The translations under genes and the position numbers were made by a program. DNA of 64,000 nucleotides from Flaviaestuariibacter flavus (lineage in GTDB: Bacteria > Bacteroidota > Bacteroidia > Chitinophagales > Chitinophagaceae). This document shows positions 1-62,746 of this stretch, one piece after another. Location of the stretch: assembly GCF_004337505.1 (NCBI RefSeq), contig NZ_SJZI01000046.1:1-64000 (forward strand), written 5' to 3'. Every line of letters begins with the position of its first letter. The first letter of the stretch is position 1. The notes below the pieces were generated by a model. The model was given only the letters and a program-made list of their open reading frames with translations, was not told the origin of the DNA and did no database searches.

Positions 1-23
1 CGATATTCGTTATCCGATATTCC
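1..23. repeat. Heptamer array (word CGATATT/CGTTATC) at 3' end of hemE
   Basis: The bases read cgatatt-cgttatc-cgatatt, a period of 7. The same word family occurs at 18020-18081 and 32334-32373. The array is still inside the open hemE frame where the window ends, so it encodes the terminal residues. Confidence 0.7.
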
Positions 24-1039
24 TTCACAGCTTCCACAAAGGCCTTTGCATGATCCACCGGCACATTCGGCGTGATGCCGTGTCCGAGGTTGGCGATATA
101 GCGCTGCGTGCCGAAGCCGTCGATCATTTCCTTTACCCAGGTTTTGATCTGCGGGATGGGTGCCAGCAGCTTTGCCGGGTCGAAGTTGCCCTGGATAGTG
201 ATGCGGTCGCCGGTCAGCTCGCGGGCCTTCTTCGGTGATACGGTCCAGTCGATACCGATACCCGCGGCACCCGAGTGGCTCAGGTCTTCGATGGCATACC
301 AGGTGCCTTTGGGGAAGAGGATCACGGGTGCTTCGTCTTTTACGGCATTCGATATCTGCAGCAGGTAGGGCTGGGCGAAGGTTTTGAAATCCTCGGGGCT
401 CAGCGCGCCGGCCCAGGAGTCGAACACCTGCACGGTGTCGGCGCCGGCCTTCACCTGTGCCTTCAGGTAGTCGATGGTGATATCGGTGATCTTCTGGAGC
501 AGGGCATGCGCCAGCTGCGGCTGGGTGTAGGCAAACTGCTTGGCCTTGTCCCAGGTTTTGGAGCCCTTGCCTTCCACCATGTAGCAGAGGATGGTCCAGG
601 GCGCGCCGGCGAAACCGATAAGCGGCGTGCGGCCGTTCAGTTCTTTTTTCGTGAGCGTGAGCGCGTCGAGTACGTACTTCAGGCTTTCTTCTGCGCCTTC
701 GGTGATGAGCGCGTCTATGTCGGCCTGCGTCTGGATGGTCTTCGGCAGCGAGGGGCCTTTGCCTTCTTCCATCAGCACTTCCACGCCCATGGCCTGCGGG
801 ATCACGAGGATGTCGGAGAAGATGATGGCCGCGTCCACACCCACCTGGTCGATGGGCTGCAGGGTGATCTCGGTGGCGAGCTCGGGCGTCTGCACGCGGG
901 TAAAGAAATCGTATTTGGCCTTCAGCTTCAGGTAGTCGGGCAGGTAGCGGCCGGCCTGGCGCATCATCCATACCGGCGGGCGTTCTACGGATTCGCCGCG
1001 GAGGGCGCGCAGGAGGAGGTCGTTCTTCAGTTCGCTCAT
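1..1039 (-). CDS. hemE: Uroporphyrinogen decarboxylase, C-terminus cut by window edge
   Basis: Decarboxylates the four acetate side chains of uroporphyrinogen III to give coproporphyrinogen III in the cytoplasm. 346 codons are visible, close to the usual full length of about 340-350, so only the extreme C-terminus is missing. The family signature RQAGRY is at residues 27-32, followed by the conserved [14 protein letters not shown] stretch that carries the substrate-binding Asp, and a C-terminal GHGITPNVP segment. The ATG overlaps the hemD stop as ATGA, so the two are translationally coupled. The last visible residues (EYRITNI) are encoded by a heptamer array at 1-23, the same type that encodes the tail of CcoS. 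Identification is secure. Confidence 0.96.
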
Positions 1040-1752
1040 AAATTATTCTTCGTTATAAAGGTCTCAAAAAACTCCATCGCTTCGCGCAGCAGGTCTTCTT
1101 TGCCCGGCTGCCGGGCGATCACCACCGTACCGCTGAAATGGCGGCGGATGGCGTCGGCGGTGGTGGTGCCGATGGCAAACAGAACGCTATGCTTTGCGGG
1201 CTGGTTGACGCTGAAATAGCTTTCCACCGCCGATGGGCTGAAAAAGAGCAGGGCGCGGTAGTCTTTGCCCACGCGCTGCGGGGTGGCGATGGTGCGGTAT
1301 ACTACCTGCTCGTTGATGCGGATGCCGGCTTCCCGTAGTTTTACGGGAAGAGTGTCGCGGCGGATGTCGCCGCAAAAGAAAAGCACTTCGGTTTCGCCCG
1401 CGGCGATGATGACGTCGGCGAGGGCCGCGGCATCGTTGGCCGTGCCGGCCACGGGCAGACCGAGCTCGCTTTCCACGAGGGCGCGCGTGCTGTGCCCGAT
1501 GCAATACACTTTCCAGTCGGGGGCCGTACGCACCTGTGCCGCCACGGCTTCCACGGCGTTCATGCTGGTAAATACGACCGTATGCGCTTCGGTAGCCAGG
1601 AAGCGGATCCGTTGCGCCAGTGCAGTATCCTGGATGGCTTCTGTTTCGATAAAAGAAAGGCAGTTGACCTCAAAGCCGCGGGCGGCGGCTTCCAGCACCA
1701 GCGCGGCCGGGAGGGGGCGGGTGCTCAGTATGGCGCGATCAGCCTTTGGCAT
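1036..1752 (-). CDS. hemD: Uroporphyrinogen-III synthase
   Basis: Cyclises hydroxymethylbilane with inversion of ring D to uroporphyrinogen III. 238 residues, normal for the family, which is poorly conserved in sequence. Visible features are the N-terminal LSTRPLP start, the [12 protein letters not shown] segment, [12 protein letters not shown] and the C-terminal [11 protein letters not shown] and [11 protein letters not shown] motifs typical of HemD. It overlaps hemC upstream by 14 bases and hemE downstream by 4 bases, so it sits in a compact hemACDE operon. The operon position supports the call more strongly than the sequence alone. Confidence 0.93.
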
Positions 1753-2722
1753 TGCGGATGGCTTCTACGATTTTTAGCACCCGGGGGTTCTGCAGCAGCT
1801 CGTTGGCCGCATCCACGCCGAGGTTATTGGCAAAAGCGATATCGGCCTGCTTCTGAATTTCTACCAGCTCCGAGCCGTCCGGCGCGCACAGGTTGCCTTC
1901 AAAGCGCACCTGGGCATACTCGATGCGGGCCAGCGCCGATATCGGTGTGGAGCAGCCGCCCATCAGGGTGCGGAGAAAGTCGCGCTCAACGCGCACGCAT
2001 AATGCTGTTTCGGGATGGTTGAGCGGGCGCACCGACTCATAGGCTTCCGCGTCTTCGCTGCGACACACAATCATGATGGCTCCCTGTGCCGGTGCGGGGA
2101 GCATCCAGTCGAGGTCCACCGAAGTTGCCGGGCGCACCTCGATGCGCTCCACACCTGCGGCGGCGAAGATGGCGCCGGCCCAGTCGCTTTCGGCCACCTT
2201 GCGCAGGCGGGTGTTGACGTTGCCGCGCAGGTTCTCTACGTCGGTATTGGGATAGCGGTGCTTCCATTGTGCGATGCGGCGGATGGAGCTCGTGCCGATG
2301 GTGAATGGTGAATGGTCAATGGTCAGTGCTTGTTCTTCCCTATTCACCTTTGACCATTGACCATTGACCCAACCCAGCTTCGCGAGGTCGGACTCATTCT
2401 TATAGACGAAAATATCCTTCGTAGACGCGCGCTCCAGCACGGCCACTTCCTGGATGCCCTGCGCCAGTTGGGTAGGCACATCTTTCATGGAGTGCACGGC
2501 GATGTCGATGCGGCCGCTGAGCAGCGCGGCATCGAGGCTGCGGGTAAACACACCCTGTACGCCGAGGGCATAGAGCGGTGTTACCGTGTCGATGTCGCCT
2601 TCGCTTTTAATATATATGAGCTCGGAGCTTACGCCCTGCCCTTTCAGGAGGTTCTGAACGAGGGTGGCCTGCCAGACGGCAAGCTGGCTGTCGCGGGTGC
2701 CGATGCGGAGTGTGCGGGACAT
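1739..2722 (-). CDS. hemC: Hydroxymethylbilane synthase (porphobilinogen deaminase) with repeat-encoded insert
   Basis: Polymerises four porphobilinogen units into hydroxymethylbilane. 327 residues, longer than the usual 305-315. Conserved landmarks are RIGTRDSQLA (residues 6-15), HSMKDVPT (77-84), GTSSIRR (143-149), LRGNVNTRL and the cofactor-cysteine motif GGCSTPI. The extra length lies at about residues 117-142, directly before GTSSIRR, where relatives have only a few residues; this stretch is encoded by an inverted heptamer array also found in intergenic DNA (2298-2369). The reading frame is kept. The ATG overlaps the hemA stop as TAATG. The gene is probably functional because all catalytic motifs are intact, but the insert is unusual. 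Confidence 0.95.
   Translation of the reverse strand: MSRTLRIGTRDSQLAVWQATLVQNLLKGQGVSSELIYIKSEGDIDTVTPLYALGVQGVFTRSLDAALLSGRIDIAVHSMKDVPTQLAQGIQEVAVLERASTKDIFVYKNESDLAKLGWVNGQWSKVNREEQALTIDHSPFTIGTSSIRRIAQWKHRYPNTDVENLRGNVNTRLRKVAESDWAGAIFAAAGVERIEVRPATSVDLDWMLPAPAQGAIMIVCRSEDAEAYESVRPLNHPETALCVRVERDFLRTLMGGCSTPISALARIEYAQVRFEGNLCAPDGSELVEIQKQADIAFANNLGVDAANELLQNPRVLKIVEAIRNAKG
2298..2369. repeat. Inverted heptamer array inside hemC
   Basis: The left arm (2298-2325) is built from ATGGTGA/ATGGTCA units and the right arm (2343-2369) from TTGACCA/TTCACC units; the arms are reverse complements around a short unrelated loop. The same words fill the gap after hemH (5318-5371) and the gap between the TonB receptor and PepSY gene (8076-8199). 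About 72 bases, i.e. 24 codons, in frame with hemC. Confidence 0.85.
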
Positions 2723-3970: not shown

Positions 3971-4090
3971 CTTTGCGCGACGCCCGCGTCCTAACTTCTG
4001 TGTCATTGATCTGTCATAAGGAGGGGTGATCTTGCTCAGGGTGCGGCATGACTGCGATGGGATGGGGGCTTTGCCGGATGATTTGCGGGG

Positions 4091-4208
4091 AGAGAAAGAA
4101 CGCAGATTTATTATGATCTTTTATGATGAGCGCGGATACCGGTACCAACATCAGCGTAAATCAAAATCAATCTGCGTATTCCGCATGCGGAATCTGCGTG
4201 CTTTCTCT
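4091..4208. repeat. 118-bp imperfect palindromic repeat, copy 1
   Basis: Ends are AGAGAAAG and CTTTCTCT; inside them AACGCAGATT pairs with AATCTGCGT. The same order of blocks (GATGAGCGCGGAT, GGTACC, ATCAGCGTAAATCA, TCTGCGTATTCCGC, GCGGAATC) recurs in copies at 14788-14907 (same orientation) and 21453-21570 (opposite). It has no coding capacity of its own and lies in the hemA-hemH gap. Confidence 0.85.
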
Positions 4209-4225
4209 ACCGATATTTGCCGCCT

Positions 4226-5317: not shown

Positions 5318-5371
5318 TTGATGGTGATTGGTCCCGCTCATTGACCATTCACCATTGACCATTGACCGATT
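5318..5371. repeat. Heptamer array after hemH (word CCATTGA/CCATTCA)
   Basis: Begins directly after the hemH stop. The right part reads attgacc-attcacc-attgacc-attgacc; a weaker opposite-strand arm (gatggtgattggtc) precedes it. Same word family as the hemC insert and 8076-8199. Confidence 0.8.
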
Positions 5372-5384
5372 GCGGCGGGAATAC

Positions 5385-6898: not shown

Positions 6899-8077
6899 CT
6901 ACTCCAGCTCCGTCTCAATCTCCTCCGTCAGCAGCACCTTTTTCCCGTCCTTTCTCCGCTTACGCGTGCGGTTCCACCACATGATGGTGCCGGTGATGGG
7001 GAAGGTAACGCCGAGGAGGCACACGATAAAGGCGAGGATCCTGGTGGGCGTGCCGCCGATGGAGCCGGTGTGTACGGGTTTGAAGGTGCCGCGTACCCGC
7101 GCGCCGAGGGAGCGCTCCTTCCAGGTGAGGTGGCCGAGGGGAGCGGCGCTGTATTGATCGAAGTAGAAGGCGTCGGTGGCCGACTCGTGCGGCGCACCCG
7201 TGCCCAGTAATTGTACGGTGAAGGGCGCCACCGAATCCTTCGGTGCCTGCAGGTTGTAGAAGTCGGCCCCGGGGCGCTGCGCCTGCGCGGCGGTCAGCAC
7301 GGCGTCAAAAGTCGCGGGCTTCGCACCGGCTACGTAGGCCGACTTCGGCGGCTCGGGGCCCTTCATCGGCGAGCCCGTTACCGTATAAATGCTTTTATTG
7401 AACCACTCGAAGCTCCAGGCCAGGCCGGTAAAGGCCATGATAAACAGGAAGATGGCCGAGTAGAAGCCGAGCACGATGTGCAGGTCGTGGTTGAGGCGCT
7501 TCCAGGAGGCGCCCCACTTTACGGTCAGGCGCCGCTGCAGCACGGTGCGCGTTTTGGGCCACCACAGCACGATGCCGGTGAGCAGGATGAACAGGAAGAG
7601 CAAGGTGGACACGCCCACGATGTATTTGCCCACCGAGCCTTCGCCACCCAGCAGCCAGCGGTGCAGGGCGAAAACGGTATAGAAGTTCGACTCCCGGTAG
7701 CTGTATTTCTCCAGGATGGCGCCGCTGTAGGGGTTGACAAACACCGTGAAGCCGGGCTGCCGCTCGGGTGCCTTTCCGGCTTCCTTGCCTTCTTTCTTTT
7801 TGGCAGCCGTGATGCTCACTTCGGCCGAGCGGCCCGGGTCCGTGTACAGCCGGATGCCCGTCACCTTGGTACCGGGAAAGGCGTCCTTTACCCGCTGCAC
7901 GAGACCGGCGGCCGGCAGCTTTTGCGAAGCCGGCGACACATAATAGCGCTCCTTGCTGGCGGCCATCATGATGTCTTTTTCAAACACCAGCAGTGCGCCC
8001 GTAAGGCAGGCGATGAGGATGACGAGCCCCGCGGCGAAGCTGAGGTAAAGGTGGATACGGCGGAAGAATACTTTCAT
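6899..8077 (-). CDS. PepSY-associated transmembrane protein, probable ferric-siderophore reductase
   Basis: 392 residues with four membrane spans: residues about 10-32, 148-172, 205-228 and 345-368. PepSY-type domains fill the two outer loops. Conserved histidines occur in RRIHLYLSF, FALHRWLL, LNHDLHIVLG and FKPVHTGSIGG, a pattern expected for b-type haem ligands in this family. Such proteins commonly sit beside TonB-dependent siderophore receptors and are thought to reduce ferric siderophores in the inner membrane. Here the receptor gene is directly upstream on the same strand (133-bp gap filled by heptamer arrays), which fits that job. Confidence 0.87.
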   Translation of the reverse strand: MKVFFRRIHLYLSFAAGLVILIACLTGALLVFEKDIMMAASKERYYVSPASQKLPAAGLVQRVKDAFPGTKVTGIRLYTDPGRSAEVSITAAKKKEGKEAGKAPERQPGFTVFVNPYSGAILEKYSYRESNFYTVFALHRWLLGGEGSVGKYIVGVSTLLFLFILLTGIVLWWPKTRTVLQRRLTVKWGASWKRLNHDLHIVLGFYSAIFLFIMAFTGLAWSFEWFNKSIYTVTGSPMKGPEPPKSAYVAGAKPATFDAVLTAAQAQRPGADFYNLQAPKDSVAPFTVQLLGTGAPHESATDAFYFDQYSAAPLGHLTWKERSLGARVRGTFKPVHTGSIGGTPTRILAFIVCLLGVTFPITGTIMWWNRTRKRRKDGKKVLLTEEIETELE

Positions 8078-8199
8078 GGTGGTGAATGGTCAATGGTCAA
8101 TGGCCCGATGAGGATTAGTATTTGGCTGAACCGGCTGTTAAAGCGAATGGTGAATGGCGAAGGTCCTGATTGACCATTGACCATTCACCATTCACCCTG
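8076..8199. repeat. Facing heptamer arrays between receptor and PepSY genes
   Basis: Left array 8076-8105 uses GGTGAAT/GGTCAAT units and right array 8144-8198 uses GGTGAAT then ATTGACC/ATTCACC units, so the outer arms can pair. Same words as inside hemC. Confidence 0.82.
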
Positions 8200-8210
8200 T
8201 CCAGGTTGTC

Positions 8211-10721
8211 TTAAAATTTATAGGAAAGCGTGCCCATCAACTGCCTCGGCGGGATCGGGTTTACGCTGTAGTTCTCGTGAACATACCAGTTGAAGGTGTT
8301 GGTGACGTTGCTCACCTTGGCCATCAGCGCAAAGCGTTTCCAGCTGTAACCGGCGCTCAGGTCGAGGGTGCTGTAGCCTTTCACCTCGAACATGCGGTCG
8401 CGCCACGAGAAGGGAGCCTTCGGAACGCTGGAGTTGGTATACGTGTTCTTCACCACGTCGCTGTTCCAGCCGGCATTGCGGTCGCCGATATAGAGGAAGG
8501 TGGCACCGAGCTTGAGGCCCTTCAGCTTGCCGGAGCCGATGGTGTAAAAAGCGCTCGCATTAGCCGTATGCGCGGGGTTGTTCACGAGTCGCTCGCCGGT
8601 TTTGAAGGCACCCGAAGTAGTGTCGTTTTTCGTGTAGCGCATGTAGTTGTAGCTGTAGCCGGCACGCAGGTCGAGGCCTTCGATGGGGCTGGCGGCGAGA
8701 TCCAGCTCCACGCCATCGGAAATCGTCTGGCCCGACAGCATCCTGATATTGCTGTTGTTGTTGGGCGTAACGCCGTCCTTCAGGTAGGGCGCCGTTTGCG
8801 CGAGGTTGTTGTTCACGATGCGGTAGGCCGTTACGTTGGCCGAGAGGCGGCCGCCGAAGAGCTCGTTCTTCACCCCGACCTCATACTGGTTGATGGTGGA
8901 AGGCTTCAGGGGGTTGTTGTCTACGTCGATGCCCGTATTCACCGAAAAGGAATTGGTGTAGGAGGCAAACAGCGAGGTGTTGGACGTGGGCTTGTACACG
9001 ATGCCGGCACGGGGCGAGAAGGCGCGGTCGATGCGGGTGGTGCCGATGAAGAGCGAGTCGTTGGCCAGCGTGGTGGTCTGCACGCCTTCCGTTACCACGT
9101 ACGACATGCGGGCGCCGAGCAGGACATTGAACTTATCCGAAAGCTTCACGAGGTCCTGGGCATAGATGCCGAAGCGGTCAATGGGGCTGAAGGTGCGCGT
9201 TGCCTTGCTGTATTCGGGCAGGTCGGTGGCAGCGGCATATTTGCCGGGGTTCAGCAGGTTGATGCTGTCGTAGATGCCGGCGGCCAGCAGGCGGCCGTTG
9301 AAATTGCGGCGGGCGAAATTAAAGGTATAGGCCTCGGTGCCATAGTGGTCGGCGTCGATGCCCGCCAGGATGGTGTGCTCCCAATTACCGGTGTGCACCT
9401 TGCCGTTCAGGTTCAGCTGGCCGGTGTAGTACTGCTCTTCGGTCTGGATGCGGCCGAGCGAGCGGCCCCAGTTACCGGCCGTGTCGGCCTGCACGCGCTC
9501 CACCGACATATAGTCGCGCGAGTAGAACTGGTAGTTGAGGGCCGACTGCAGGTTCCAGTTGTCGCTGATGCGGTGCCTGAGGGTAGCACCGGCGGTCGAT
9601 TGCTGGGTGATATTATACTGCCAGGGCGTACCGAAAAAGGCGCCGCGGGCTACCGGGGTGATGGTCTTGCCGCTCACGCTGCCATAGGCGCCGATGGTGC
9701 CGATGCCGAAGTCGGGGGTGAAGTCGTGCTTCAGGTAATCTCCCTCGAGCAGCAGCTCGGTGCGCTTGCCCAGCTTGAAGAGGAAGGAAGGGTTGATGTA
9801 GTAGCGGTCGGAGTGAACGCCGGCGCGGTAGGAGTCGGCGCTTTCAAAAGAGCCGTTGAGGCGGTAGGCTACTTTTCCCGACAGCGGACCGTACACGTCG
9901 AATGCAGGTTTGAGCAGGTTGTAAGAGCCGGCGCGGAGCGACACTTCGCCGCCGCGGGAGAATTTGGGCTGCTTGGTCACGAGGTTGACCACGCCGCCGG
10001 GCGCTACCTGGCCGAAGAGGATGGCGGCCGAGCCTTTCAGCACCTCCACGCGCTCCAGCGAGCCCATCTCGGGCATGGCGCCGGAGTTGAGGCGGGCGCC
10101 GTTCTTAAACAGGTTGCTCGATCCGAAGGCGTAGCCGCGGGCCGCGAAGCTTTCCTGCACGGCTCCGCGTGCGGTGGTCATATATACGCCGTTGACGTTG
10201 CGGATGGCGTCGGAGAGGCGCTGTACCTGCTGCTCGCGCAGCACGGGGGCGCCCAGCACGGTCACGGCCTGGGGCAGGTCCATCGGGTGGATGGCGGCCT
10301 TGCCGATGGCCGGCGTGCGGTCGTTGAGGGTGCGGCCCGAGGTAACGATCACCTCGGTGAGTTGCTTTTCGTTGAGGGCCAGGCGTACTTCGAGCGCCGT
10401 GGTGCTGCCCTTGCGCACTTCGATGGCGCGCTCCACCGCCCCGGTGCCGGTCATGCTCACCACGAGGGTATAGCTGCCTTCGGGGAGGTTGCGGAAAACG
10501 AAGGTGCCGGTTTCGTCGGTGGTGGTCGTCTTATCGGTGCCGCGTACCTGCACGGTGGCATAGGGGGCGGGCTGTCCGTCGGTGGTGAGCACGCGGCCCT
10601 GGATGCTGAATTCGGGTGTTTCGTTGGTGTGGTTCACGGCCGCAAAGGCGGTCAGGTGCTGCTCGGTCTGGGCGGCGGCGCCAAGGCAGCTCAGGGCCAG
10701 GATACAGGTAACAAATCCTTT
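8211..10721 (-). CDS. TonB-dependent siderophore receptor
   Basis: 836 residues from a GTG start. A signal peptide (KGFVTCILALSCLGAAAQ) is followed by a CarboxypepD_reg-like domain (about 40-120, IQGRVLTTDGQPAPYATV), a plug domain (about 130-250, LPQAVTVLGAPVLREQQVQRLSDAI, LERVEVLKGSAAILFGQ, GGVVNLVTKQP) and a 22-strand-type beta-barrel ending in the aromatic LMGTLSYKF. The plug signature is that of ferric-siderophore receptors rather than SusC. An in-frame ATG at 10817 would place 32 residues before the signal peptide and upstream of a -7-like element, so the GTG is preferred. Outer membrane; imports a ferric chelate using TonB-ExbBD energy. Confidence 0.93.
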   Translation of the reverse strand, partial: KGFVTCILALSCLGAAAQTEQHLTAFAAVNHTNETPEFSIQGRVLTTDGQPAPYATVQVRGTDKTTTTDETGTFVFRNLPEGSYTLVVSMTGTGAVERAIEVRKGSTTALEVRLALNEKQLTEVIVTSGRTLNDRTPAIGKAAIHPMDLPQAVTVLGAPVLREQQVQRLSDAIRNVNGVYMTTARGAVQESFAARGYAFGSSNLFKNGARLNSGAMPEMGSLERVEVLKGSAAILFGQVAPGGVVNLVTKQPKFSRGGEVSLRAGSYNLLKPAFDVYGPLSGKVAYRLNGSFESADSYRAGVHSDRYYINPSFLFKLGKRTELLLEGDYLKHDFTPDFGIGTIGAYGSVSGKTITPVARGAFFGTPWQYNITQQSTAGATLRHRISDNWNLQSALNYQFYSRDYMSVERVQADTAGNWGRSLGRIQTEEQYYTGQLNLNGKVHTGNWEHTILAGIDADHYGTEAYTFNFARRNFNGRLLAAGIYDSINLLNPGKYAAATDLPEYSKATRTFSPIDRFGIYAQDLVKLSDKFNVLLGARMSYVVTEGVQTTTLANDSLFIGTTRIDRAFSPRAGIVYKPTSNTSLFASYTNSFSVNTGIDVDNNPLKPSTINQYEVGVKNELFGGRLSANVTAYRIVNNNLAQTAPYLKDGVTPNNNSNIRMLSGQTISDGVELDLAASPIEGLDLRAGYSYNYMRYTKNDTTSGAFKTGERLVNNPAHTANASAFYTIGSGKLKGLKLGATFLYIGDRNAGWNSDVVKNTYTNSSVPKAPFSWRDRMFEVKGYSTLDLSAGYSWKRFALMAKVSNVTNTFNWYVHENYSVNPIPPRQLMGTLSYKF

Positions 10722-14787: not shown

Positions 14788-14907
14788 AGAGAAGGAACGC
14801 GGATTTTTTATGATTTGTTATGATGAATGCGGATTTCGGTACCGACATCTGCGTAAATCATAAAAGATCTGCGTATTCCGCCTGCGGAATCAGCGTTCCT
14901 GCTCTCT
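14788..14907. repeat. 120-bp imperfect palindromic repeat, copy 2
   Basis: Ends AGAGAAGG and CTCTCT. Nearly the same sequence as the reverse complement of 21453-21570 and in the same orientation as 4091-4208. Confidence 0.85.
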
Positions 14908-17439: not shown

Positions 17440-17489
17440 GCGAAGCCGACGCGAAGTGGTTTGGTAGCGCGCGAAGCGACCGCAAAGCG

Positions 17490-17625: not shown

Positions 17626-17800
17626 GGCCGAAGGCCGTCGCTTCGCGAGCTACCAACAGCATTCGCCCATTGCGCAAAGCGGAGCCGGGTTCGTCCTCCC
17701 TCATTACCTCATTCCCTCGTGCCTCACCCTCACTCCTCCATTATTCAAGTACTCCAGTATTCAAGTATTCCATGCTTCTCTCATCCACCTGACGAACGTC

Positions 17801-17871: not shown

Positions 17872-18057
17872 ATGAGTGTCTTAATCGTCCTGGTCGTGCT
17901 CTCCGTGATCGTCGCCGGCACCTTTCTCTACCTCTTCATCATCAGCGTGCGCAAGGGCCAGTTCGACGACGACTACACACCCTCGGTACGCATGCTCTTC
18001 GACGATACTCCTGCGGCAATACCGAATAATGAATATCGAATAACGGATAACGAATAA
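17872..18057 (+). CDS. ccoS: cbb3 oxidase maturation protein CcoS with repeat-encoded tail
   Basis: 61 residues from the ATG at 17872. One membrane span (about 2-24, VLIVLVVLSVIVAGTFLYLFII) is followed by the family signature KGQFDDDYTPSVRMLFDD, where CcoS normally ends. The next residues (NNEYRITDNE) are encoded by a heptamer array, which also supplies the stop. CcoS is needed for cofactor insertion into cbb3 oxidase. It lies directly upstream of ccoNO. Confidence 0.9.
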   Translation: MSVLIVLVVLSVIVAGTFLYLFIISVRKGQFDDDYTPSVRMLFDDTPAAIPNNEYRITDNE

Positions 18058-18081
18058 CGAATATCGAATAACGAATATCGA
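18020..18081. repeat. Heptamer array (word CGAATAA/CGAATAT) overlapping ccoS 3' end
   Basis: Reads as successive 7-base units such as TGAATAT, CGAATAA, CGGATAA, CGAATAA, CGAATAT. It encodes the last CcoS residues and runs on past the stop. Same words as 1-23 and 32334-32373. Confidence 0.85.
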
Positions 18082-21570: not shown

Positions 21571-21613
21571 CCGCCGAAGGCGGCATGACGAATGTTAGGT
21601 TTTGTTGTTCTGA

Positions 21614-21670: not shown

Positions 21671-23107
21671 ATGGAAACGAACAAAACGCATACAACCTAT
21701 ACGACACCCCAAGCCTTCACCGGCGCCCGCGACGAGTCCTTCCGCGACACCATCGCCACGGTAGACGGCGACGGCAAGCGCCGCTTCATCTTTCCGAAAA
21801 AGCCGAAGGGCAAACTGTACAACCTGCGCACGCTGGCTTCGCTGGTATACCTAACGATCTTCTTCTCGCTGCCCTTCATCAGGTCGGGCGGGCACCCGCT
21901 CTTCCTGTTCAACGTGGTGGAGCGCAAGTTCATTCTCTTCGGACAGATATTCTGGCCCCAGGACTTCTTCATCTTCGCCATCGGCTTCCTCACCTTCATG
22001 GTGTTCGTGATCCTGTTTACCGTGGTGTTCGGCCGGGTGTTCTGCGGCTGGGCCTGCCCGCAAACGGTGTTCATGGAAATGGTGTTCCGCAAGATCGAAT
22101 ACTGGCTCGACGGCGATGCCAGCGCTCAGAAAAAACTCAAGGAGCTGCCCTGGAACGCCTTCAAGATCCGCAAGCGTGTCACTAAGATGGCCGTGTTCTA
22201 TGCCATCTCCTTCATCATCGGCAACTGGGCCCTCGCCTACGTGATCGGGATGGAGAACGTAGTGAAGATGGTACACGACGGCATCGGCGCGCACCCCGTT
22301 ACCTTCTCCACGCTTATCGGCTTTACCACCGTTTTCTTTTTCGTGTTCTACTGGTTCCGTGAGCAGGCCTGCATCGTGGTATGTCCCTACGGCCGCCTGC
22401 AGGGCGTGCTGCTGGATCGCAAGAGCATGGTGGTGGCCTACGACTACACCCGCGGCGAGCCACGCGGCAAGCTGAAGAAAGCCGGGACCCTCGACACCGG
22501 CGACTGCATCGACTGTGCCGCCTGCGTGCGTGTTTGTCCCACCGGCATCGACATCCGTAACGGCACCCAGCTGGAGTGCATCAACTGCACCGCCTGCATC
22601 GACGCCTGCAACGACATCATGACGAAAATTAACCGCGACCTCGGTCTCATCCGCATCGACTCGGAAGAGAACATCGCCCGCGGCAACAAGAAGTTGTTTA
22701 CCGGCCGCACCCGCGCCTATTCGGCCCTGCTGGTGCTGCTGCTCGGCGTGCTGGTGACGCTCCTCGTTACCCGCCGCGACGTGGATGCCACCATCCTCCG
22801 CACCGCCGGCCAGATCTTCCAGACGCAGGCCGACGGCCGCCTGAGCAACATGTACAGCATCAAGCTGGCCAACAAGACCCGCCGCGATATTCCTATCACC
22901 CTCAAGGTGGAAAACCTTCCCGGCGAGATCGGCCTCATCGGCACCAACGTAGTCGCCCTGAAGGAAGCCTACTTCCAGACGCCCTTCTTCGTCAAGATCC
23001 CGCGCAGCGCCATCCATGCCCGCAAAACACCGATCGTGATCGGGGTGTATGAAGGCGACAAGCGGATAAGAAAGGTGGAGACGACGTTTTTCGGACCGGG
23101 GTATTGA
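21671..23107 (+). CDS. ccoG: cbb3 oxidase accessory protein CcoG (polyferredoxin/cupric reductase)
   Basis: 478 residues. Five or so membrane spans, the CGWACPQTVFMEMVFRKIE and VVCPYGRLQ cysteine motifs in the membrane part, then two ferredoxin-type 4Fe-4S sites (CIDCAACVRVCP and CINCTACIDACN). The C-terminal third is an FixG-type Ig-like domain (ADGRLSNMYSIKLANKT...LPGEIGLIG). CcoG is known to reduce Cu2+ to Cu+ for the oxidase copper centre. The stop codon overlaps a heptamer array. Confidence 0.95.
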   Translation: METNKTHTTYTTPQAFTGARDESFRDTIATVDGDGKRRFIFPKKPKGKLYNLRTLASLVYLTIFFSLPFIRSGGHPLFLFNVVERKFILFGQIFWPQDFFIFAIGFLTFMVFVILFTVVFGRVFCGWACPQTVFMEMVFRKIEYWLDGDASAQKKLKELPWNAFKIRKRVTKMAVFYAISFIIGNWALAYVIGMENVVKMVHDGIGAHPVTFSTLIGFTTVFFFVFYWFREQACIVVCPYGRLQGVLLDRKSMVVAYDYTRGEPRGKLKKAGTLDTGDCIDCAACVRVCPTGIDIRNGTQLECINCTACIDACNDIMTKINRDLGLIRIDSEENIARGNKKLFTGRTRAYSALLVLLLGVLVTLLVTRRDVDATILRTAGQIFQTQADGRLSNMYSIKLANKTRRDIPITLKVENLPGEIGLIGTNVVALKEAYFQTPFFVKIPRSAIHARKTPIVIGVYEGDKRIRKVETTFFGPGY

Positions 23108-23141
23108 TCTCAGATCCCAGATGTCGGATCTCAGATCGGGG
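23106..23141. repeat. Heptamer array (word GATCTCA) starting in the ccoG stop
   Basis: Units read GATCTCA, GATCCCA, GATGTCG, GATCTCA, GATCGGG. Related arrays occur at 41405-41481, 41793-41828, 46181-46208 and 54737-54764. Confidence 0.82.
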
Positions 23142-32327: not shown

Positions 32328-32333
32328 GGAAAA

Positions 32334-32490
32334 ATGAATATCGAATAACGAATAAGGAATATCGAATATCGAAGTGGCAAAGCCCGGGTGATTGTGCCCG
32401 GGCTTTGCTTGTTCGATACTTAATGTTCAATGCGCAATGTTCAATTGGGTTAGTACTTGTGCCTTGAAAATTGATCGTTGATTATTGAAT
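32334..32490. repeat. Three heptamer arrays and a hairpin after the SDYEK gene
   Basis: 32334-32373 has TGAATAT, CGAATAA, CGAATAA, GGAATAT, CGAATAT. 32377-32408 is a hairpin GCAAAGCCCGGG/CCCGGGCTTTGC that may terminate transcription. 32422-32449 has AATGTTC, AATGCGC, AATGTTC, AATTGGG. 32462-32490 has TTGAAAA, TTGATCG, TTGATTA, TTGAATA. Confidence 0.78.
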
Positions 32491-32928
32491 ATTCTCTTCA
32501 TCCGTGTACACGCCCCACCAGTTGTCAGGGAAGGTGGCGATGCCTTCTTCGAGATGGTAAGGAAAGGTGTACTGCACCTGTCTTTTGGCGAGGCCGTGCC
32601 AGGTGTCGAGCACAACGGCGTCGGTGCCTTCGGGATAATTTTCGCCGGTGACCCGTGCATCCCAGGCAATGGCCCAGGCGGTGGCGCTGCCCTGCGCTAC
32701 GAGCTTGCCGAAAACTTTTTGGTATTGCGCAATGACCGCTGCGCTCTCCGGCTGCTCGTTGCCTTCATAAACGCCAAGGGGTACCAGACCGCCGCTGACA
32801 TCGAGATACGCACCTACCGGAAAGAACTCGCCATACTTTTCAATGAGGTCGGCACAAAAACCGACCAGGTATTGGATCAGCTCGTTGAGGTCCTGCTCGA
32901 TGCGGGCTTCGTTTGGTTGGTTGGACAT
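32482..32928 (-). CDS. Hypothetical cytoplasmic protein
   Basis: 148 residues from the ATG at 32928 (a longer frame from 33075 would run into the neighbouring gene). No signal peptide. Pattern: helical N-terminus (EARIEQDLNELIQYLVGFCADLIEKYGEFFPVGAYLD), then a beta-rich part (VPLGVYEGNEQPES, AWAIAWDARVTG, DAVVLDTWHG, YTFPYHLEEG) and an acidic end GVYTDEENIQ. I do not recognise the family, although its general style recalls small immunity-like proteins. Downstream of another unknown on the same strand. Confidence 0.75.
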   Translation of the reverse strand: MSNQPNEARIEQDLNELIQYLVGFCADLIEKYGEFFPVGAYLDVSGGLVPLGVYEGNEQPESAAVIAQYQKVFGKLVAQGSATAWAIAWDARVTGENYPEGTDAVVLDTWHGLAKRQVQYTFPYHLEEGIATFPDNWWGVYTDEENIQ

Positions 32929-41404: not shown

Positions 41405-41481
41405 ATGTCAGATCCCGGATCTCAGATCTCAGATTTGGCTTCGCAAACCAGATCGCAGATCTGAGATCTGACATCTGAAAT
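41405..41481. repeat. Facing heptamer arrays (word CAGATCT) after receptor gene
   Basis: Left: GATCCCG, GATCTCA, GATCTCA, GATTTGG. Right: GATCGCA, GATCTGA, GATCTGA, CATCTGA. They begin directly after the stop codon and can pair. Confidence 0.82.
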
Positions 41482-41792: not shown

Positions 41793-41842
41793 GCAAATCA
41801 GACATCAGACATCCGACATCCGACATCCTCTTTGTACCTTCG
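41793..41842 (+). promoter_or_regulatory. Heptamer array and -7 element before ileS
   Basis: 41793-41828 reads CAGACAT, CAGACAT, CCGACAT, CCGACAT. TACCTTCG at 41835-41842 resembles TAnnTTTG (one mismatch) 23 bases before the ileS ATG. Confidence 0.5.
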
Positions 41843-45203: not shown

Positions 45204-46142
45204 ATGGCAACAAAGAAAGCAGCACCGAAGAAAGCCGCCGCGAAGACGGCAAAGCCGGCGCCCAAGAAGGCGCCAGCCAAAGCGGCCGTGAAAGCATCCG
45301 TCAAGCCTGCTGCCTCCAAAAACACCAAACCCGCGCCTAAGAAGGCGGTAGCTGTCAAAGCAGCTCCTGCCAAAAAGTCGGCCCCGGCCAAAGCGGCCCC
45401 CAAGGCAGCGCCCAAGAAAGCAGCCGTAAAGGCGGCTCCTAAAAAGGCAGCCCCGGTGCCCGCCAAAAAGGCCGCCCCGGCGGCAAAGCCGGTAGCAAAG
45501 GCCCCGGTCAAGGCTGCCCCGAAGGCTGCCGCGCCTCCTGCGCCTGCCAGGAAAAGCGCCGCCGAGCCGGTAAAAAAGCCGGCCGTTTCTGCTCCTTCCA
45601 CGCCCGAGGTAAAGCCGGCTATCAAGCCGCTGACCCCGGCCAAAAAGAAAGAGGAGCCGAAAAAACCCTTTGTCATCCCTAAAACAACCACTACGAAATC
45701 CGTGAAGTACGATCCTGAGTTTACCAAGTCCGTTCTCGACAGCAATGGAAAGCCCCAGGAAGCGCCGCGTTCCTCGCAGCGTTATTCCGACGCCGACCTG
45801 ACCGAGTTCCGCGAGCTGATCAACCGCAAGCTGGAGACCGCCAAGAAGGAACTGCTGTACCTGCAGGGCCTCATCACCCGCAAGGATGAAGGCGGCGACC
45901 TCGACGAAGGCCGCTACATGACCATGGAAGACGGCTCGATGTCAATGGAGCGCGAGCAGCTGAGCCAGATGGCCAGCCGCCAGATCCAGTTCATCGACCA
46001 CCTAGAAAAGGCCATCATGCGCATCGAGAATAAGACCTACGGCATCTGCCGCGTCACCGGGAAGCTGATCGACAAGGCCCGCCTCCGCGCGGTGCCCCAC
46101 GCGACGCTCTCTATCGAAGCGAAACAGATGATGAACAAGTAA
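45204..46142 (+). CDS. TraR/DksA-like protein with long Lys/Ala/Pro histone-H1-like tail
   Basis: 312 residues. Residues 1 to about 165 are a low-complexity basic tail of KKAAPKK/PAKKAA units, like histone-H1-type and nucleoid-associated tails. Residues about 195-312 are a DksA/TraR-like unit: coiled-coil (FRELINRKLETAKKELLYLQGLI, EQLSQMASRQIQFIDHLEKAIMRIE) and then YGICRVTGKLIDKARLRAVPHATLSIEAK. Only the first of the four zinc cysteines remains; the others are T, S and A, a form I recall as usual in this phylum. It may bind DNA through the tail and RNA polymerase through the coiled coil; that is inference. Confidence 0.88.
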   Translation: MATKKAAPKKAAAKTAKPAPKKAPAKAAVKASVKPAASKNTKPAPKKAVAVKAAPAKKSAPAKAAPKAAPKKAAVKAAPKKAAPVPAKKAAPAAKPVAKAPVKAAPKAAAPPAPARKSAAEPVKKPAVSAPSTPEVKPAIKPLTPAKKKEEPKKPFVIPKTTTTKSVKYDPEFTKSVLDSNGKPQEAPRSSQRYSDADLTEFRELINRKLETAKKELLYLQGLITRKDEGGDLDEGRYMTMEDGSMSMEREQLSQMASRQIQFIDHLEKAIMRIENKTYGICRVTGKLIDKARLRAVPHATLSIEAKQMMNK

Positions 46143-46180: not shown

Positions 46181-46208
46181 ACGATGTCCGATGTCTGATG
46201 TCTGATTT
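46181..46208. repeat. Heptamer array (ACGATGT/CTGATGT)
   Basis: ACGATGT, CCGATGT, CTGATGT, CTGATTT. A half copy of the GTCATTGCGAGC element follows at 46232-46260. Confidence 0.75.
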
Positions 46209-47766: not shown

Positions 47767-48239
47767 CCATCCATTTTTCGTACAACCGCAAAGACGTCAT
47801 CCAGGCACTGCGCTACCATTTCCTGAGCCGACCCGAGATCCGCGTGATGATCATCGTAGTGAATGTGTTTGCGCTCATGTCGGCGATACTTTTTTATATG
47901 AACCGCGCCACGCCCCTGGCCTTCCTGATCGGGTCGCTCACCTGGTTTGTGCTGATGACCGTGTTCTGGCTCCTGCTGCCGCTGACCGTTTACCGGCGCA
48001 ACGACACCTTCCGCGATCACTTTACCATGGCCTTCGGCGACCAGGGCTTTACCCTCGGCAACGAGCGCGGGGAGCGGCCTTTCGCGTGGAGCAAGCTCAG
48101 TAAGTTCATGGAAACACCCGGCTTCTTCTACCTGTATTTCGACCCGCGCTCATTTTTTCTTGTTCCGAAGGGCAGCCTCAAAGACAGCGACGAAGTGTAT
48201 GAGTTGCGGCAGATCTTTAAAGAGAAAATCGGGAAATAA
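47763..48239 (+). CDS. YcxB-like membrane protein
   Basis: 158 residues with two adjacent membrane spans (about 30-45 and 52-73) and a C-terminal YcxB-like domain (FTMAFGDQGFTLGNERGERPFAWSKLSKFMETPGFFYLYFDPRSFFLVPKGSL). Translationally coupled to the PhoD-like gene by a 4-base overlap. Role unknown. Confidence 0.82.
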   Translation: MTIHFSYNRKDVIQALRYHFLSRPEIRVMIIVVNVFALMSAILFYMNRATPLAFLIGSLTWFVLMTVFWLLLPLTVYRRNDTFRDHFTMAFGDQGFTLGNERGERPFAWSKLSKFMETPGFFYLYFDPRSFFLVPKGSLKDSDEVYELRQIFKEKIGK

Positions 48240-48240
48240 T

Positions 48241-48356
48241 GCGGTAATCCGGTAATGTGATAATGCGGTAATAGAAAAGCCGCTCCTCTGGAGCGGCTTT
48301 TCTATTAACTAGCCAAACGTTTTATCACATTACCGGATTACCACATTACCGCATTG
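48241..48356. repeat. Facing octamer arrays around a terminator hairpin
   Basis: Left: GCGGTAAT, CCGGTAAT, GTGATAAT, GCGGTAAT. Right (48333-48356): ATCACATT, ACCGGATT, ACCACATT, ACCGCATT. Between them AGAAAAGCCGCTCC-tct-GGAGCGGCTTTTCT (48273-48303) is a perfect terminator stem serving both convergent genes. Confidence 0.85.
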
Positions 48357-48785
48357 CTAAAGTGCTTTTTCCATAACATAGTGGGGGATCGTAATTTCCC
48401 TGAATTCCTCGCCCTTTTTCTTGTAGCCCATTTTCTCGTAGAAGCCCTGGGCGTTCTTACGGGCATGCATGGTGATCTTTTTGTAGCCGCGGTCGCGGGC
48501 GATATTTTCCGCGAAGGACATGAGGGCTTTGCCGATGCCTTTGCCCTGGAGGTCGTTGAGTACGGCCATCTGGCGCAGGCGCACGGTGTCGGGCGCTTCT
48601 TCCACCAGCATGCAACAGCCAAGCAGGTGATCGTCCTCGTAAGCCACCATCAGGATATTGTCTTTTTCTTTTTCCAGCTCTCCCGGCTCAAAAGACAAAC
48701 CGAGCGGCCGCCGAAGGATCTCCTCGCGCAGCTGCACCATTTCGTCGTATTCGGGCGTTCCGTGATCAATGATTTTCAATGCCAT
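48357..48785 (-). CDS. GNAT-family N-acetyltransferase
   Basis: 142 residues. Acetyl-CoA-binding motif A in LNDLQGKGIGKALMSFAE, preceded by GCCMLVEEAPDTVRLRQMAV and followed by the motif B part NAQGFYEKMGYKKKGEEF. The ATG at 48785 (MALKIIDHGTPEYDEM) fits the family better than one ten codons upstream. Substrate unknown. Confidence 0.88.
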   Translation of the reverse strand: MALKIIDHGTPEYDEMVQLREEILRRPLGLSFEPGELEKEKDNILMVAYEDDHLLGCCMLVEEAPDTVRLRQMAVLNDLQGKGIGKALMSFAENIARDRGYKKITMHARKNAQGFYEKMGYKKKGEEFREITIPHYVMEKAL

Positions 48786-54736: not shown

Positions 54737-54764
54737 CAGATCTCCGATGTCTGATGTCTGATTT
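54737..54764. repeat. Heptamer array after iscS
   Basis: CAGATCT, CCGATGT, CTGATGT, CTGATTT, starting 6 bases after the stop; nearly the same as 46181-46208. Confidence 0.75.
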
Positions 54765-54823
54765 GTTTTGCAGTCGGAAAAAGACGAAGGGATCAAACAA
54801 TAAAGGTTGGTAGGTACCCGGTA

Positions 54824-54855
54824 CTAATTAACCAATAGACTAATTAACCAATAAA
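54824..54855. repeat. 16-bp tandem repeat before iscU
   Basis: CTAATTAACCAATAGA followed by CTAATTAACCAATAAA, ending 10 bases before the iscU ATG. Confidence 0.75.
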
Positions 54856-55285: not shown

Positions 55286-55406
55286 GAGCAAGTTTGCTAG
55301 TGGGGTAGTATGCTGATGGATTCTCTTTTAAATGAGAATAGCCCTTTGGCACCGAAGCACCATCCACTAGCGCACTAGCAAGTTTGCACATTAGCACATT
55401 AAACCT
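55286..55406. repeat. Facing repeats in iscU-iscA gap
   Basis: AGCAAGTTTGCTAGTGG on the left is inverse to CCACTAGC.CACTAGCAAGTTTGC on the right; the right part has an 8-base step (CTAGCGCA, CTAGCAAG, TTTGCACA, TTAGCACA). Confidence 0.65.
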
Positions 55407-55757
55407 ATGGTTGCAACAGACAACGGAATTTACGTAAGTGATAAGGCCCGCGACAAGGTGCGGCAGCTGATGCTGGAAGCCGGTGTAGGCGACGATCCCT
55501 CGTACTTTGTACGCGTGGGCGTCGTTGGCGGCGGTTGCTCGGGATTGAGCTACAAGCTCGATTTCGACAACGAGCAAAAGCCGATGGACCAGGTGTTTGA
55601 AGACAACGGCGTGAAAGTGGTCACCGACCTCAAAAGCTTCCTGTACCTCGTAAACACGATGCTCGATTTCTCCGACGGCCTCAACGGCAAGGGCTTCTTC
55701 TTCAACAACCCGAATGCATCGCGCACCTGCGGTTGCGGGGAGAGCTTCGCGGTGTAA
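55407..55757 (+). CDS. iscA: HesB/IscA-family Fe-S carrier
   Basis: 116 residues with the three conserved cysteines in GGGCSGLSYKL and CGCGESF. A-type carrier or iron donor that passes clusters from IscU to target proteins. Belongs with iscS-iscU here. Confidence 0.92.
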   Translation: MVATDNGIYVSDKARDKVRQLMLEAGVGDDPSYFVRVGVVGGGCSGLSYKLDFDNEQKPMDQVFEDNGVKVVTDLKSFLYLVNTMLDFSDGLNGKGFFFNNPNASRTCGCGESFAV

Positions 55758-55811
55758 TCGTGAATCGTCAATCCTGAATGCCGAAGGCGTCGCGCAAGCG
55801 ACGCCTTCGGC

Positions 55812-55947
55812 GTCATTGCGAGCGAAGCGAAGCAAACTCCGGCGTTACGCAGAGTGGTCGTGGTCGAAAGAACTTTCAAATTGAAGCGCTTGCGGGTTAC
55901 AGTCAGTCTTCAGGTAGGAGAGTTTGCTTCGCGTTGCTCGCAATGAC
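55812..55947. repeat. 136-bp GTCATTGCGAGC element, copy 3
   Basis: Same orientation as 17490-17625, with interior blocks CAAATTGAAGCGCTTGC and ACAGTCAGTCTTCAGGT. The remaining gap to gldF (55948-56065) carries CCGCG-rich runs (CCGCGCTTTCCGCG) but no gene. Confidence 0.82.
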
Positions 55948-56065
55948 GGCTTCGCCGTCGCCTGGCGGCGGATTTAGCGTTTCGTTTCACATGTTTTCCG
56001 CGCTTTCCGCGTTTTCTGCGTGCGCACCTTCCTCCGCGTTTTATTCTTTACTTACTTTACACCCT

Positions 56066-59496: not shown

Positions 59497-59497
59497 A

Positions 59498-59612
59498 TGT
59501 GAGCCGTCAGCCGTGAACCGTCAACGCAGCGACGTTCATTGCCTTTTGCTCCCATAGTTGAAGTTGAGCATTGACGCGCTCATGGCTCACGGCTGACGGT
59601 TCACGGCTCACG
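59498..59612. repeat. Facing heptamer arrays after terC
   Basis: Left: GTGAGCC, GTCAGCC, GTGAACC, GTCAACG. Right (59580-59612): TGGCTCA, CGGCTGA, CGGTTCA, CGGCTCA. The arms are inverse. Confidence 0.83.
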
Positions 59613-62079: not shown

Positions 62080-62100
62080 GGATTCGCTAAATTGCCGCCG

Positions 62101-62700
62101 ATGGAATTGCACCGGATCGTACAGGAGGCGCGCCGCCGAGAGGGACTTACGCAGGAAGAATTGGCGGAACGTACTGGCATTACTGTTCGTACCATCCAGC
62201 GGATTGAGAGCGGCGAGACCACCCCGCGTGCTTTTACCCTTAAAACGATCGCTGAAGTTCTTGGACTTTCCTTGTCGGACCTGCAGCCTCCGGCGTCACC
62301 CGCGCCCCCAGACGAGCCTTCGCCGCCGGCAGCCTCCGTACCCGCGGCACCAGGTGATGGAAACACCCATTTTCTCCGGTTTGTTTGCCTTTCCTGCTTT
62401 AGCTGCCTGCTGCTGCCGATGGTGCATTTCCTGGTACCGCTTTTTATCTACCGCTCCCGAGCGTCCCTGCTGTCGGCCGAAGAGAAGCGCTTTGCCCGGC
62501 GGGTGGTATTCGGGCAGATCTACTGGGTCATCGCGCTTGACCTGCTGCTCCTGCTGACCCTGGCCTGGAATCTCTGGCAGGGCCGCGAGGGGTGGCAGAT
62601 CTCTTATATAACTACCACGCTCCTGCTCTATGCTGCCAACGCCATTCTGATTTTCTGGATGACGCGACAGGCGGGACGCTTGGAAGTGCCCCGCAAGTGA
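62101..62700 (+). CDS. XRE-family HTH protein with DUF4870-like membrane domain
   Basis: 199 residues. HTH at about 4-60 (LTQEELAERTGITVRTIQRIESGETTPRAFTLKTIAEVLG), Pro/Ala-rich linker, then three membrane spans (about 95-115, 137-160, 170-190) of DUF4870 type. A membrane-bound DNA-binding protein. ATG at 62101 is preferred over TTG three codons upstream. It may control its neighbour through the 11-bp repeats at 62714. Confidence 0.88.
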   Translation: MELHRIVQEARRREGLTQEELAERTGITVRTIQRIESGETTPRAFTLKTIAEVLGLSLSDLQPPASPAPPDEPSPPAASVPAAPGDGNTHFLRFVCLSCFSCLLLPMVHFLVPLFIYRSRASLLSAEEKRFARRVVFGQIYWVIALDLLLLLTLAWNLWQGREGWQISYITTTLLLYAANAILIFWMTRQAGRLEVPRK

Positions 62701-62713
62701 TTGATAATCAGTA

Positions 62714-62746
62714 AATGTCGGGTCAATGTCGGGTGAATGTCGATAC
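62714..62746. promoter_or_regulatory. Three 11-bp direct repeats plus -7 element
   Basis: AATGTCGGGTC, AATGTCGGGTG and AATGTCGATAC follow with a strict 11-base period. TAGTTTCG (62767-62774), one mismatch to TAnnTTTG, is 22 bases before the next ATG. Confidence 0.6.

Follow-up and report, generated by a model that had tools for sequence, protein, structure and literature searches.

The window analyzed here is the first 64 kb of contig 46 (positions 1 to 64,000 of NZ_SJZI01000046.1) of Flaviaestuariibacter flavus, whose genome, designated G000, is 3.96 Mb long in 52 contigs and 86% complete. About one in five of the gaps between its genes, including those behind the ferrochelatase, ccoG, and YcxB-domain genes, carries dispersed tandem arrays of 7- or 8-nt units with conserved and variable positions, and arrays also enter the coding sequences of hemC and fixS (Table 1). 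Where two arrays share a gap, they show a fixed polarity: a word W stands at the left and its reverse complement at the right. Each species has its own vocabulary of words, and at roughly half of the array sites that two relatives have in common with G000, the word is a different one.

The sample comprised 864 kb of G000, namely the window and a further 40 stretches from four contigs, each 20 kb long, placed at round coordinates and chosen regardless of matches. Gap borders were obtained with a purpose-built, non-standard hexamer gene finder (742 genes, 89% coding) and are approximate. G011 and G016 belong to the same genus, and G031 represents another family of the same order; each species is represented by one genome. 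The hemC DNA of G011 and G016 is 77–78% identical to that of G000, the best value in the genus being 78%, and the best named match is the hemC of Flaviaesturariibacter aridisoli, with 79% identity. No Rfam family matched the window at gathering scores.

Periods and Distribution of the Arrays

Tandem Repeats Finder reported 64 rows in the window at a score of at least 30, of which 20 had period 7 and 5 had period 8. The dispersed arrays described in the first-pass annotation are real, as every word named there was recovered by the program except TTGATTA; for this word, three matches to two copies (at most 2 mismatches) were found against 0.08 expected. A stricter self-match scan of the window revealed 10 period-7 runs, where 10 second-order Markov simulations averaged 0.0, and its other periods were the multiples 14, 16, and 21 and one 11-mer. 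No period-8 run in the window exceeded the stricter cut-off, because the 8-nt units are too divergent.

The concentration of periods at 7 and 8 extends to the whole sample. The 864 kb contain 133 runs with periods from 3 to 30, of which 48 had period 7 and 40 had period 8 (88 in total); a further 20, which include coding repeats, had periods 14, 16, 21, or 24. A period-7 run was found in 56 and a period-8 run in 39 of the 497 gaps of at least 40 nt, with either in 93, while periods 5, 6, 9, 10, 11, and 12 were found in 1, 2, 4, 4, 2, and 1 of the same gaps. Three base-order shuffles of these gaps yielded no period-7 or period-8 run, and the coding sequence of the sample showed no signal at either period. 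After merging, 107 arrays remained, about half of them (56) with 8-nt units: 96 lie in gaps, 8 within called open reading frames (ORFs), and 3 at sequence ends. The first-pass annotation placed the arrays in gaps, which holds for most of them; in the window, the array at 2298-2369 is inside hemC and the one at 18018-18081 lies over the end of fixS.

The density of arrays varies among relatives: 36 arrays of period 7–9 were counted for G016 (232 kb), 14 for G011 (180 kb), and 17 for G031 (151 kb). The samples of G007 (60 kb), G009 (40 kb), and G013 (21 kb) showed no 7- or 8-nt array and are too small to call any genome array-poor; word searches do find arrays elsewhere in G013 (45 matches) and G007 (22 matches to a control pattern). 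A survey of 20 genomes of the family and order, covering 321 kb with two of the 20 stretches lacking readable bases, revealed 3 period-7 and 7 period-8 runs. All 7 period-8 runs and one of the 3 period-7 runs came from G031.

Fixed Polarity

Among the 354 gaps of 80–400 nt in the sample, 40 contain paired arrays, and in all 40 the word W is at the left and its reverse complement is at the right. The left-hand words and their families were named after inspection of the gaps; the null model leaves this naming free in each family, and random orientation then gives 25.9 of 40, with a maximum of 34 in 20,000 trials. The polarity, which was missed by the first-pass annotation, is kept in tandem, convergent, and divergent gaps, whatever the gene directions. 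Counted per family, 76 gaps are for and 4 against the rule, with some gaps present in two families. In a looser set of same-family pairs, 22 are convergent, none is reversed, and 1 has both arrays in the same direction.

Single arrays obey a nearest-edge rule in 48 of 58 cases, and gaps with arrays of two families keep the polarity in 4 of 4. Thus, pairing between arms is not the sole cause of the rule. The outward word was observed at 47 of the 59 nearest 3′ edges and at 51 of the 56 nearest 5′ edges.

The arrays may be kept for the formation of G-quadruplexes on one strand, as proposed for the GGGAATC repeats by Rehm et al. (2015, PMC4692102), and both placement and polarity equal those described there. 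Four GG tracts are present in 30 of 90 arrays. However, four GGG tracts are present in 0 of 90, and six families without GG in their consensus (GATGTC, GATCTC, GAATAWC, CGTSARC, CGTSAAT, and AATGYTC) keep the polarity in 33 gaps against 1, a count in which one gap may appear in two families and GATSTCG variants do hold GG. The G-quadruplex explanation is therefore not general, and it is considered extremely improbable for these arrays. Since words without GG obey the strand rule, the rule needs another cause.

Outside G000, the polarity was judged by composition alone. Arrays are G/T-rich in the outward direction in 13 of 14 cases in G011 and in 18 of 29 in G016. In G031, 5 arrays at 3′ edges are G/T-rich outward and 1 is not, with 4 ties, and the 5′ edges are split 3 to 3; this genome is not clearly under the polarity rule. 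The counts in G000 itself are also mixed, with 23 G/T-rich outward versus 16 at 3′ edges and 28 versus 9 at 5′ edges; thus, composition is a poor proxy for polarity. In array-free gaps, the G/C skew at 5′ edges has the same sign, and 3′ edges show little of it.

Several simple causes of the polarity were considered. A filter against stop or start codons does not fit: the complement of GATCTCA contains the stop codon TGA, and the GATCTC family nevertheless obeys the rule 11 to 0, as judged by inspection. Pure richness in G or in G/T is contradicted by GATCTC and GAATAWC, which are not G-rich, and by the weak composition rule at the 3′ edges of G000. Rho-dependent insulation of gene edges would fit the C-rich incoming strand; against it, Nostoc obeys the same polarity, and cyanobacteria are not known to possess Rho.

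Word Families, Facing Arms, and Placement

The words are not unrelated, as the first-pass annotation had supposed. At a looser cut-off, 134 arrays were found in 98 gaps, and 115 of them belong to nine families recurring within the genome, an array being assigned when it holds at least two words of one of the nine family patterns; these patterns are short, and chance fits among the arrays are possible. The other 19 fit none. Intermediates connect the families: GGTAAT and TTAGCACA types intergrade within single arrays (L009:18857-18933 and L025:15452-15519).

The claim that facing arms are able to pair was borne out by an inverted-repeat search, which found five pairs in the window (2300/2346, 8080/8169, 41405/41450, 48237/48322, and 59499/59589). 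Five author-chosen gaps were folded as RNA and compared with shuffles, giving z-scores of −12.9, −5.0, −7.2, −6.0, and −4.85. The arms of 48237-48358 are predicted to fold as one long stem enclosing a terminator, at −69.4 kcal/mol. From such models, arms can form long stems around a terminator.

Arrays often stand at or shortly behind a stop codon, as noted in the first-pass annotation. In the window, they begin at 23106 (ccoG), 41408 (the 38966 receptor gene), 48237 (the TAA of the YcxB-domain gene), 54746 (16 nt after the putative iscS), and 5339 (21 nt after the ferrochelatase gene). Throughout the sample, an array lies within 4 nt of a stop codon or over it in 23 of 76 gene-end flanks, against 5.9 under random placement (maximum 14 in 2000 trials). 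Start codons show no excess of contact with arrays (2 versus 5.1 expected). Stop-codon contacts in G016 (7 versus 3.1) and G011 (4 versus 2.3) are both within chance. A TAnnTTTG-like promoter element, matched loosely, was found between the array and the start codon at 25 of 57 starts with an array upstream; among starts without an upstream array, such an element was found within 80 nt in 144 of 462. On visual inspection, a typical gap begins with the stop codon and the left array, followed by a terminator if any, the right array, and then the next stop codon or promoter. The middle of a pair is specific to its gap and often corresponds to the gene's own terminator, and no palindromic core shared between gaps was seen by eye.

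These data bear on the main rival explanation, in which selection would keep the facing arms as a single long stem at transcript ends or as an insulator. Read-through RNA arriving from either side would fold into this stem around the terminator, and 3′ ends would be protected or transcription would be kept out of the next gene. The folding of the five gaps, far better than that of shuffles, and the contact with stop codons agree with it, as does the family composition of the arms: of the 27 gaps in which two arrays were assigned, 23 have first and last arrays of the same family, while shuffled partners give 7.0 (maximum 15 in 5000). Array-bearing gaps are also commoner among convergent (18/55) than divergent gaps (10/86; Fisher p = 0.004). 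However, for paired arrays the difference is 10/55 against 8/86 (p = 0.19), and pairs are thus present between divergent promoters as well. As judged by eye, an intrinsic terminator is already present between the two arms in many gaps. Moreover, complementarity needs no single polarity, and the mixed-family gaps keep it though their words do not match. Selection for a stem is possible, although on balance it appears rather unlikely.

Vocabulary and Turnover between Species

The distribution of words was compared by overlapping matches. GGTAATGYG has 168 matches in G000; of 198 genomes of the order, 4 contain it. GTTTGTD has 0 in G000, 141 in G011, and 90 in G016, and of 18 genomes of the genus, 11 contain it. 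GATSTCN has 326 in G000, 113 in G011, and 120 in G016, and at most 4 in each of the other 15 genomes of the genus. A control pattern, the word reversed, matches G003, G006, G007, and G014 and has no match in G000, which is another sign of species-specific vocabularies.

Orthologous gaps were compared with two relatives. Among 28 gaps shared with G011, arrays are present in both genomes in 5, in G000 only in 3, in G011 only in 4, and in neither in 16. Among 25 gaps shared with G016, the corresponding numbers are 3, 5, 4, and 13. At the 8 shared array sites, the word family was read as the same in 3, different in 4 (the one at 17439 is arguable), and mixed in 1; the reading is the author's, and the relatives are distant. 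Conservation of arrays at the same loci, as ordinary inherited spacers would show it, was thus observed in part. The first-pass annotation described a uniform geometry with differing words, and this stands for about half of the shared sites, which keep the geometry with another word.

The arms in the gap 8077-8210 are GGTSAAT in G000 and CGTGAGG in G011. At 48239, G000 has GGTAATGC arms and G011 has weak CGGTTAAT-like units below the cut-off, with a terminator-like stem between them in both. The gap at 59496 is 144 nt long with arms in G000, and 24 nt and 23 nt without arms in G011 and G016, respectively. Species-specific words at shared sites provide a way of measuring the rewriting of spacers.

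Origin of the Arrays

The most likely account, held tentatively, is that the arrays are short spacer satellites driven by slippage, with words shared across a lineage. Units of 7 or 8 nt would multiply in place by slippage or unequal exchange, and arrays would fill the room between fixed elements such as the stop codon, terminator, and promoter. Each lineage would hold its own small vocabulary, common to many sites of the genome. A new word could replace the old one at a site, so that the site and its geometry would outlast the word. Facing arms of the same family would arise by exchange between pairing sequences, with template switching within the gap first and between gaps second, and the traces of exchange would afterwards be scrambled by slippage. 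Words probably move between sites by homology-dependent copying, and most arrays are probably near neutral. The cause of the outward-reading word is left unexplained by this account.

The similarity of neighbouring units argues for slippage or unequal exchange. In G000, it is 0.880 versus 0.867 in shuffles at period 7 (1 of 300 shuffles as high) and 0.851 versus 0.837 at period 8 (9 of 300). At period 8 in G031, 6 of 300 shuffles were as high, and G016 and G011 show the same direction more weakly (27, 39, and 33 of 300).

Other observations weigh against the slippage account. From slippage alone, neither a fixed polarity nor the recurrence of identical words at dozens of sites would be expected. 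Copying of blocks between sites left no excess of shared mixed three-unit runs over shuffles in the four families compared (TAAT, 5 versus 4.0; GAT, 6 versus 3.5; GAATA, 2 versus 3.7; GGTT, 0 versus 0.6); a mutual-information measure was set aside because degenerate end units bias it. The persistence of array sites across G011 and G016 is just moderate. The two arms of one gap are no more alike in the order of unit variants than arms of different gaps.

Recent copying from arm to arm, including the simple, recent form of the self-templating hairpin proposed in the first-pass annotation, was accordingly rejected: in seven family groups of 12, 8, 3, 11, 4, 3, and 5 gaps, 1564, 1308, 1688, 256, 1832, 1018, and 491 of 2000 permutations reached or exceeded the observed mean, with the three ATTGGT gaps being identical to the three GGTSAAT gaps. 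The match between the arms at 48237 and 48322 scores 24, which equals the median obtained with other gaps, and is not special. A strand bias of substitution between neighbouring units was also examined; at period 7, 41% are complementary transversions (65/157), and at period 8, 66% are transitions (202/306), and no reading fits both.

The first-pass annotation also suggested a dedicated activity. An example would be telomere-like extension of 3′ ends at broken spacers, in which the word would grow 5′ to 3′ away from the gene. The polarity of all 40 paired gaps is expected from the growth of both 3′ ends into the gap. Ku is encoded in all four genomes sampled as array-rich (G000, G011, G016, and G031). 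Of 14 genomes from other families in the order, G023 and G031 alone encode it, and G023 was array-free in the 7 kb sampled; the association was taken without control for kinship. However, Ku is also present in G007, G009, and G013, whose small samples held no array, though G013 and G007 have arrays elsewhere. No match to the reverse transcriptase family PF00078 was found in G000, G011, G016, or G031, which are drafts (G000 being incomplete as given above), and other reverse transcriptase families were not searched; no candidate gene for such an activity was thus recognized. Intact terminators between the arms are unlike simple break-and-fill, and the similarity of neighbouring units fits slippage. 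A dedicated activity is decidedly unlikely. Of the processes proposed in the annotation, slippage is the one with positive evidence, in the likeness of neighbouring units.

Relationship to Known Repeats

Repetitive extragenic palindromic (REP) sequences and their clusters (BIME), which are associated with RAYT transposases, are palindromes of 20–40 bp with a tag, present in many copies near gene ends. They resemble the arrays as extragenic palindromes at gene ends and differ in having a tag and no 7–8-nt unit. Mobilization of the arrays as REP-like or other elements by a RAYT/Y1 transposase would be consistent with their palindromic, intergenic, and multicopy nature, and Y1_Tnp genes are present in G000 (4), G011 (7), G016 (3), and G031 (1). 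However, 28 of 36 genomes have Y1_Tnp genes, and G007 (5) and G009 (3), with array-free samples, are among them. The gap-specific middles of the pairs offer no common core, and no multi-unit blocks are common to different sites. Such a mobile origin is very unlikely. Tandem heptamers in spacers, with few words per genome, are also known from cyanobacteria as short tandemly repeated repetitive (STRR) sequences.

Heptamers of the types GGGAATC and GGGGA(C/T)T were described from Xanthomonas and Nostoc. According to PMC4692102, they are intergenic, have variable positions, and are present at many sites; they form convergent inverted pairs (70 cases in Xcc) and are under-represented between divergent ORFs. 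In the 50 bp behind an ORF, stop codons included, their G-rich strand coincides with the coding strand; in the 50 bp ahead of an ORF, it coincides with the non-coding strand. One G-rich word type was reported for each organism studied, with four units preferred. The arrays of G000 share with them the heptamer unit with variable positions, the intergenic location at many sites, the convergent inverted pairs, the lower frequency between divergent ORFs, and the polarity relative to the nearest ORF. In contrast, G000 has nine families at once, of which five lack a G-run in their consensus, uses period 8 as well, and shows a change of word at some orthologous gaps. The layout and polarity match, but the four-G-tract capacity typical of GGGAATC repeats fails for most words; the arrays are therefore filed as a variant of gene-edge heptamer repeats outside the named GGGAATC family.

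The first-pass annotation knew of no description of such arrays in this phylum, but TAACTGA heptamers were published for five Bacteroidetes, besides Beggiatoaceae and Cyanobacteria (MacGregor 2015, PMC4679880). In that paper, these arrays are intergenic and patchy, and their indels are mostly in steps of 7; some Bacteroidetes carry other heptamers in the same gap, related heptamers are rare, and 169 direct sets and one indirect set are mentioned. The arrays of G000 resemble them as intergenic heptamer arrays with a patchy distribution across taxa that includes Bacteroidetes. Among the arrays listed for the 864 kb sample, no TAACTGA array upstream of a start codon was found. Long simple sequence repeats (SSRs) of 5–11 nt were surveyed by Mrazek et al. 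(2007), as cited in PMC4679880 and PMC4692102; heptanucleotides were the most abundant class in most genomes, and slippage tied to the polymerase was proposed. The greater similarity of adjacent units expected of SSRs borne by slippage is clear in G000 and G031 and weak in G011 and G016. Facing arms and polarity are absent from the descriptions of long SSRs given in those two papers and are present here. In a literature search that scarcely covered subscription journals, no paper on facing multi-word arrays in Bacteroidetes was found, and PMC4679880 was the sole paper found on heptamers of Bacteroidetes.

A genome with many words is a natural test of the strand rule, which was known before from two distant groups with a G-rich word. 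The findings point to an as yet unexplained process of a general kind by which intergenic sequence is rewritten. It is conceivable, if unlikely, that one undescribed spacer-writing process is behind the gene-edge arrays of Chitinophagaceae, Xanthomonas, and Nostoc, laying down outward 7–8-nt units of any word from both ends of a gap with a vocabulary renewed in each lineage. If so, the strand rule would be a property of the process itself rather than of G-quadruplexes or any sequence.

Arrays inside Genes and Other Features of the Window

The arrays and associated elements of the window are listed in Table 1. The class-V aminotransferase gene before 54746 fits iscS.

Table 1. Tandem arrays and associated elements in the window.
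Feature	Position	Strand	Context
Facing heptamer arrays GGTSAAT / ATTSACC	2298..2369	-	In hemC coding sequence (1739-2722), in frame, in variable loop before TSSIRR
Short left stretch TTGATGGTGATTGGTC and right array CATTSACC	5318..5372	.	After ferrochelatase stop at 5317; array starts at 5339, 21 nt on
Left arm, word GGTSAAT	8080..8103	.	
Right arm ATTSACC	8169..8196	.	22 nt fully complementary to left arm 8080..8103
8-mer arrays CCTCATTA and TATTCAAG	17699..17772	.	432-nt gap; orthologous gap of G011 has facing TACATGAG arms
Nine-unit GAATAWC array	18018..18081	.	Over end of fixS (17872-18057)
GATSTCN array	23106..23137	.	Begins at ccoG stop 23105-23107 (gene 21671-23107)
Left arm GAATAWC	32329..32373	.	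1 nt past stop of gene 31185-32327; intrinsic terminator stem at about 32375-32410 next
Weaker AATGTTC and TTGATTA units	32422..32491	.	Right of terminator at about 32375-32410, up to stop of convergent gene
Facing GATSTCN arms	41408..41478	.	Directly after stop of receptor gene (ends at 41404)
Right-polarity array ATCNGAC	41797..41828	.	36 nt upstream of next start codon
Left-polarity array GATGTCY	46182..46206	.	After terminator
Left arm, 8-mers TAATGYGG	48237..48272	.	Begins with TAA stop of YcxB-domain gene
Two-way intrinsic terminator between arms	48269..48307	.	Terminator-like stem at same place in G011
Right arm ATTACCRCA	48322..48355	.	Up to stop of convergent gene
Two-word gap: GATSTCN left, ACTAATTAACCAATAG (8-mer type, reverse complement) right	54737..54853	.	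After class-V aminotransferase gene; array starts at 54746, 16 nt on
Weak facing 8-mer arms: GCTAGTGG-type left, CACTAGC / TTAGCACA-type right	55300..55401	.	
CGTSAAT array	55756..55779	.	Starts at stop codon; CGTSA-type arrays also in gap of G011 and G016
Left arm CGTSARC	59499..59523	.	
Right arm of CGTSARC pair	59578..59612	.	

The loop of hemC that holds the facing arrays was compared among 30 loci, of which 28 gave a frame and, after removal of four duplicates, 24 distinct genes. HSPFT- or HSPLT-like peptides, which ATTCACC arrays can encode, were seen by eye in 7 of the 24, and the remaining genes have unrelated short loops at this place. Other arrays were found over the same stretch at L070:10403-10432 (CTCACCA), L077:10319-10342 (AGTCGAA), and L080:10361-10426 (facing GTGAGTG and CGACTCA). 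Thus, the word changes at one site inside a gene, too. In fixS, the array encodes the last residues and the stop codon; the domain covers residues 2-45 of 61. The arrays in hemC and at the end of fixS represent the same process entering proteins.

Several other repeats were recognized. A dispersed inverted repeat of the type CGTCATTGCGAGCGWAGCGAAGC, with arms of 21–45 nt, is present in the window at 17487-17628, 36051-36183, 55795-55964, and about 46230. A second dispersed palindrome, with arms like GAGAAAGAACGCAGAT and a GGTACCG core, is present at 4088-4211, 14797-14874, and 21454-21600, and a similar copy was found at the orthologous gap of G011 (21454). The 11-nt direct repeat AATGTCGGGTC lies before a gene at 62714-62742, with a near copy at the same place in G011. 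The region 45204-46142 includes a Lys- and Ala-rich gene start with coding repeats AAGAAAGCAGCACCG of 12–15 nt, whose length varies between relatives.

In G031, whole spacers contain several array types (AAATCCCC and CTCTTAAT), at L136:4806-5189, 7969-8189, and 8552-8723 and at L150:14087-14334. Related copies of these spacers occur as blocks in either orientation, a pattern suggestive of a composite element that has been dispersed as a unit and not of single arrays. In G023, CGAATATCGATTAACGAATA is found nearly unchanged at dozens of places, unlike the varied arrays of G000, and is likely part of a dispersed element.

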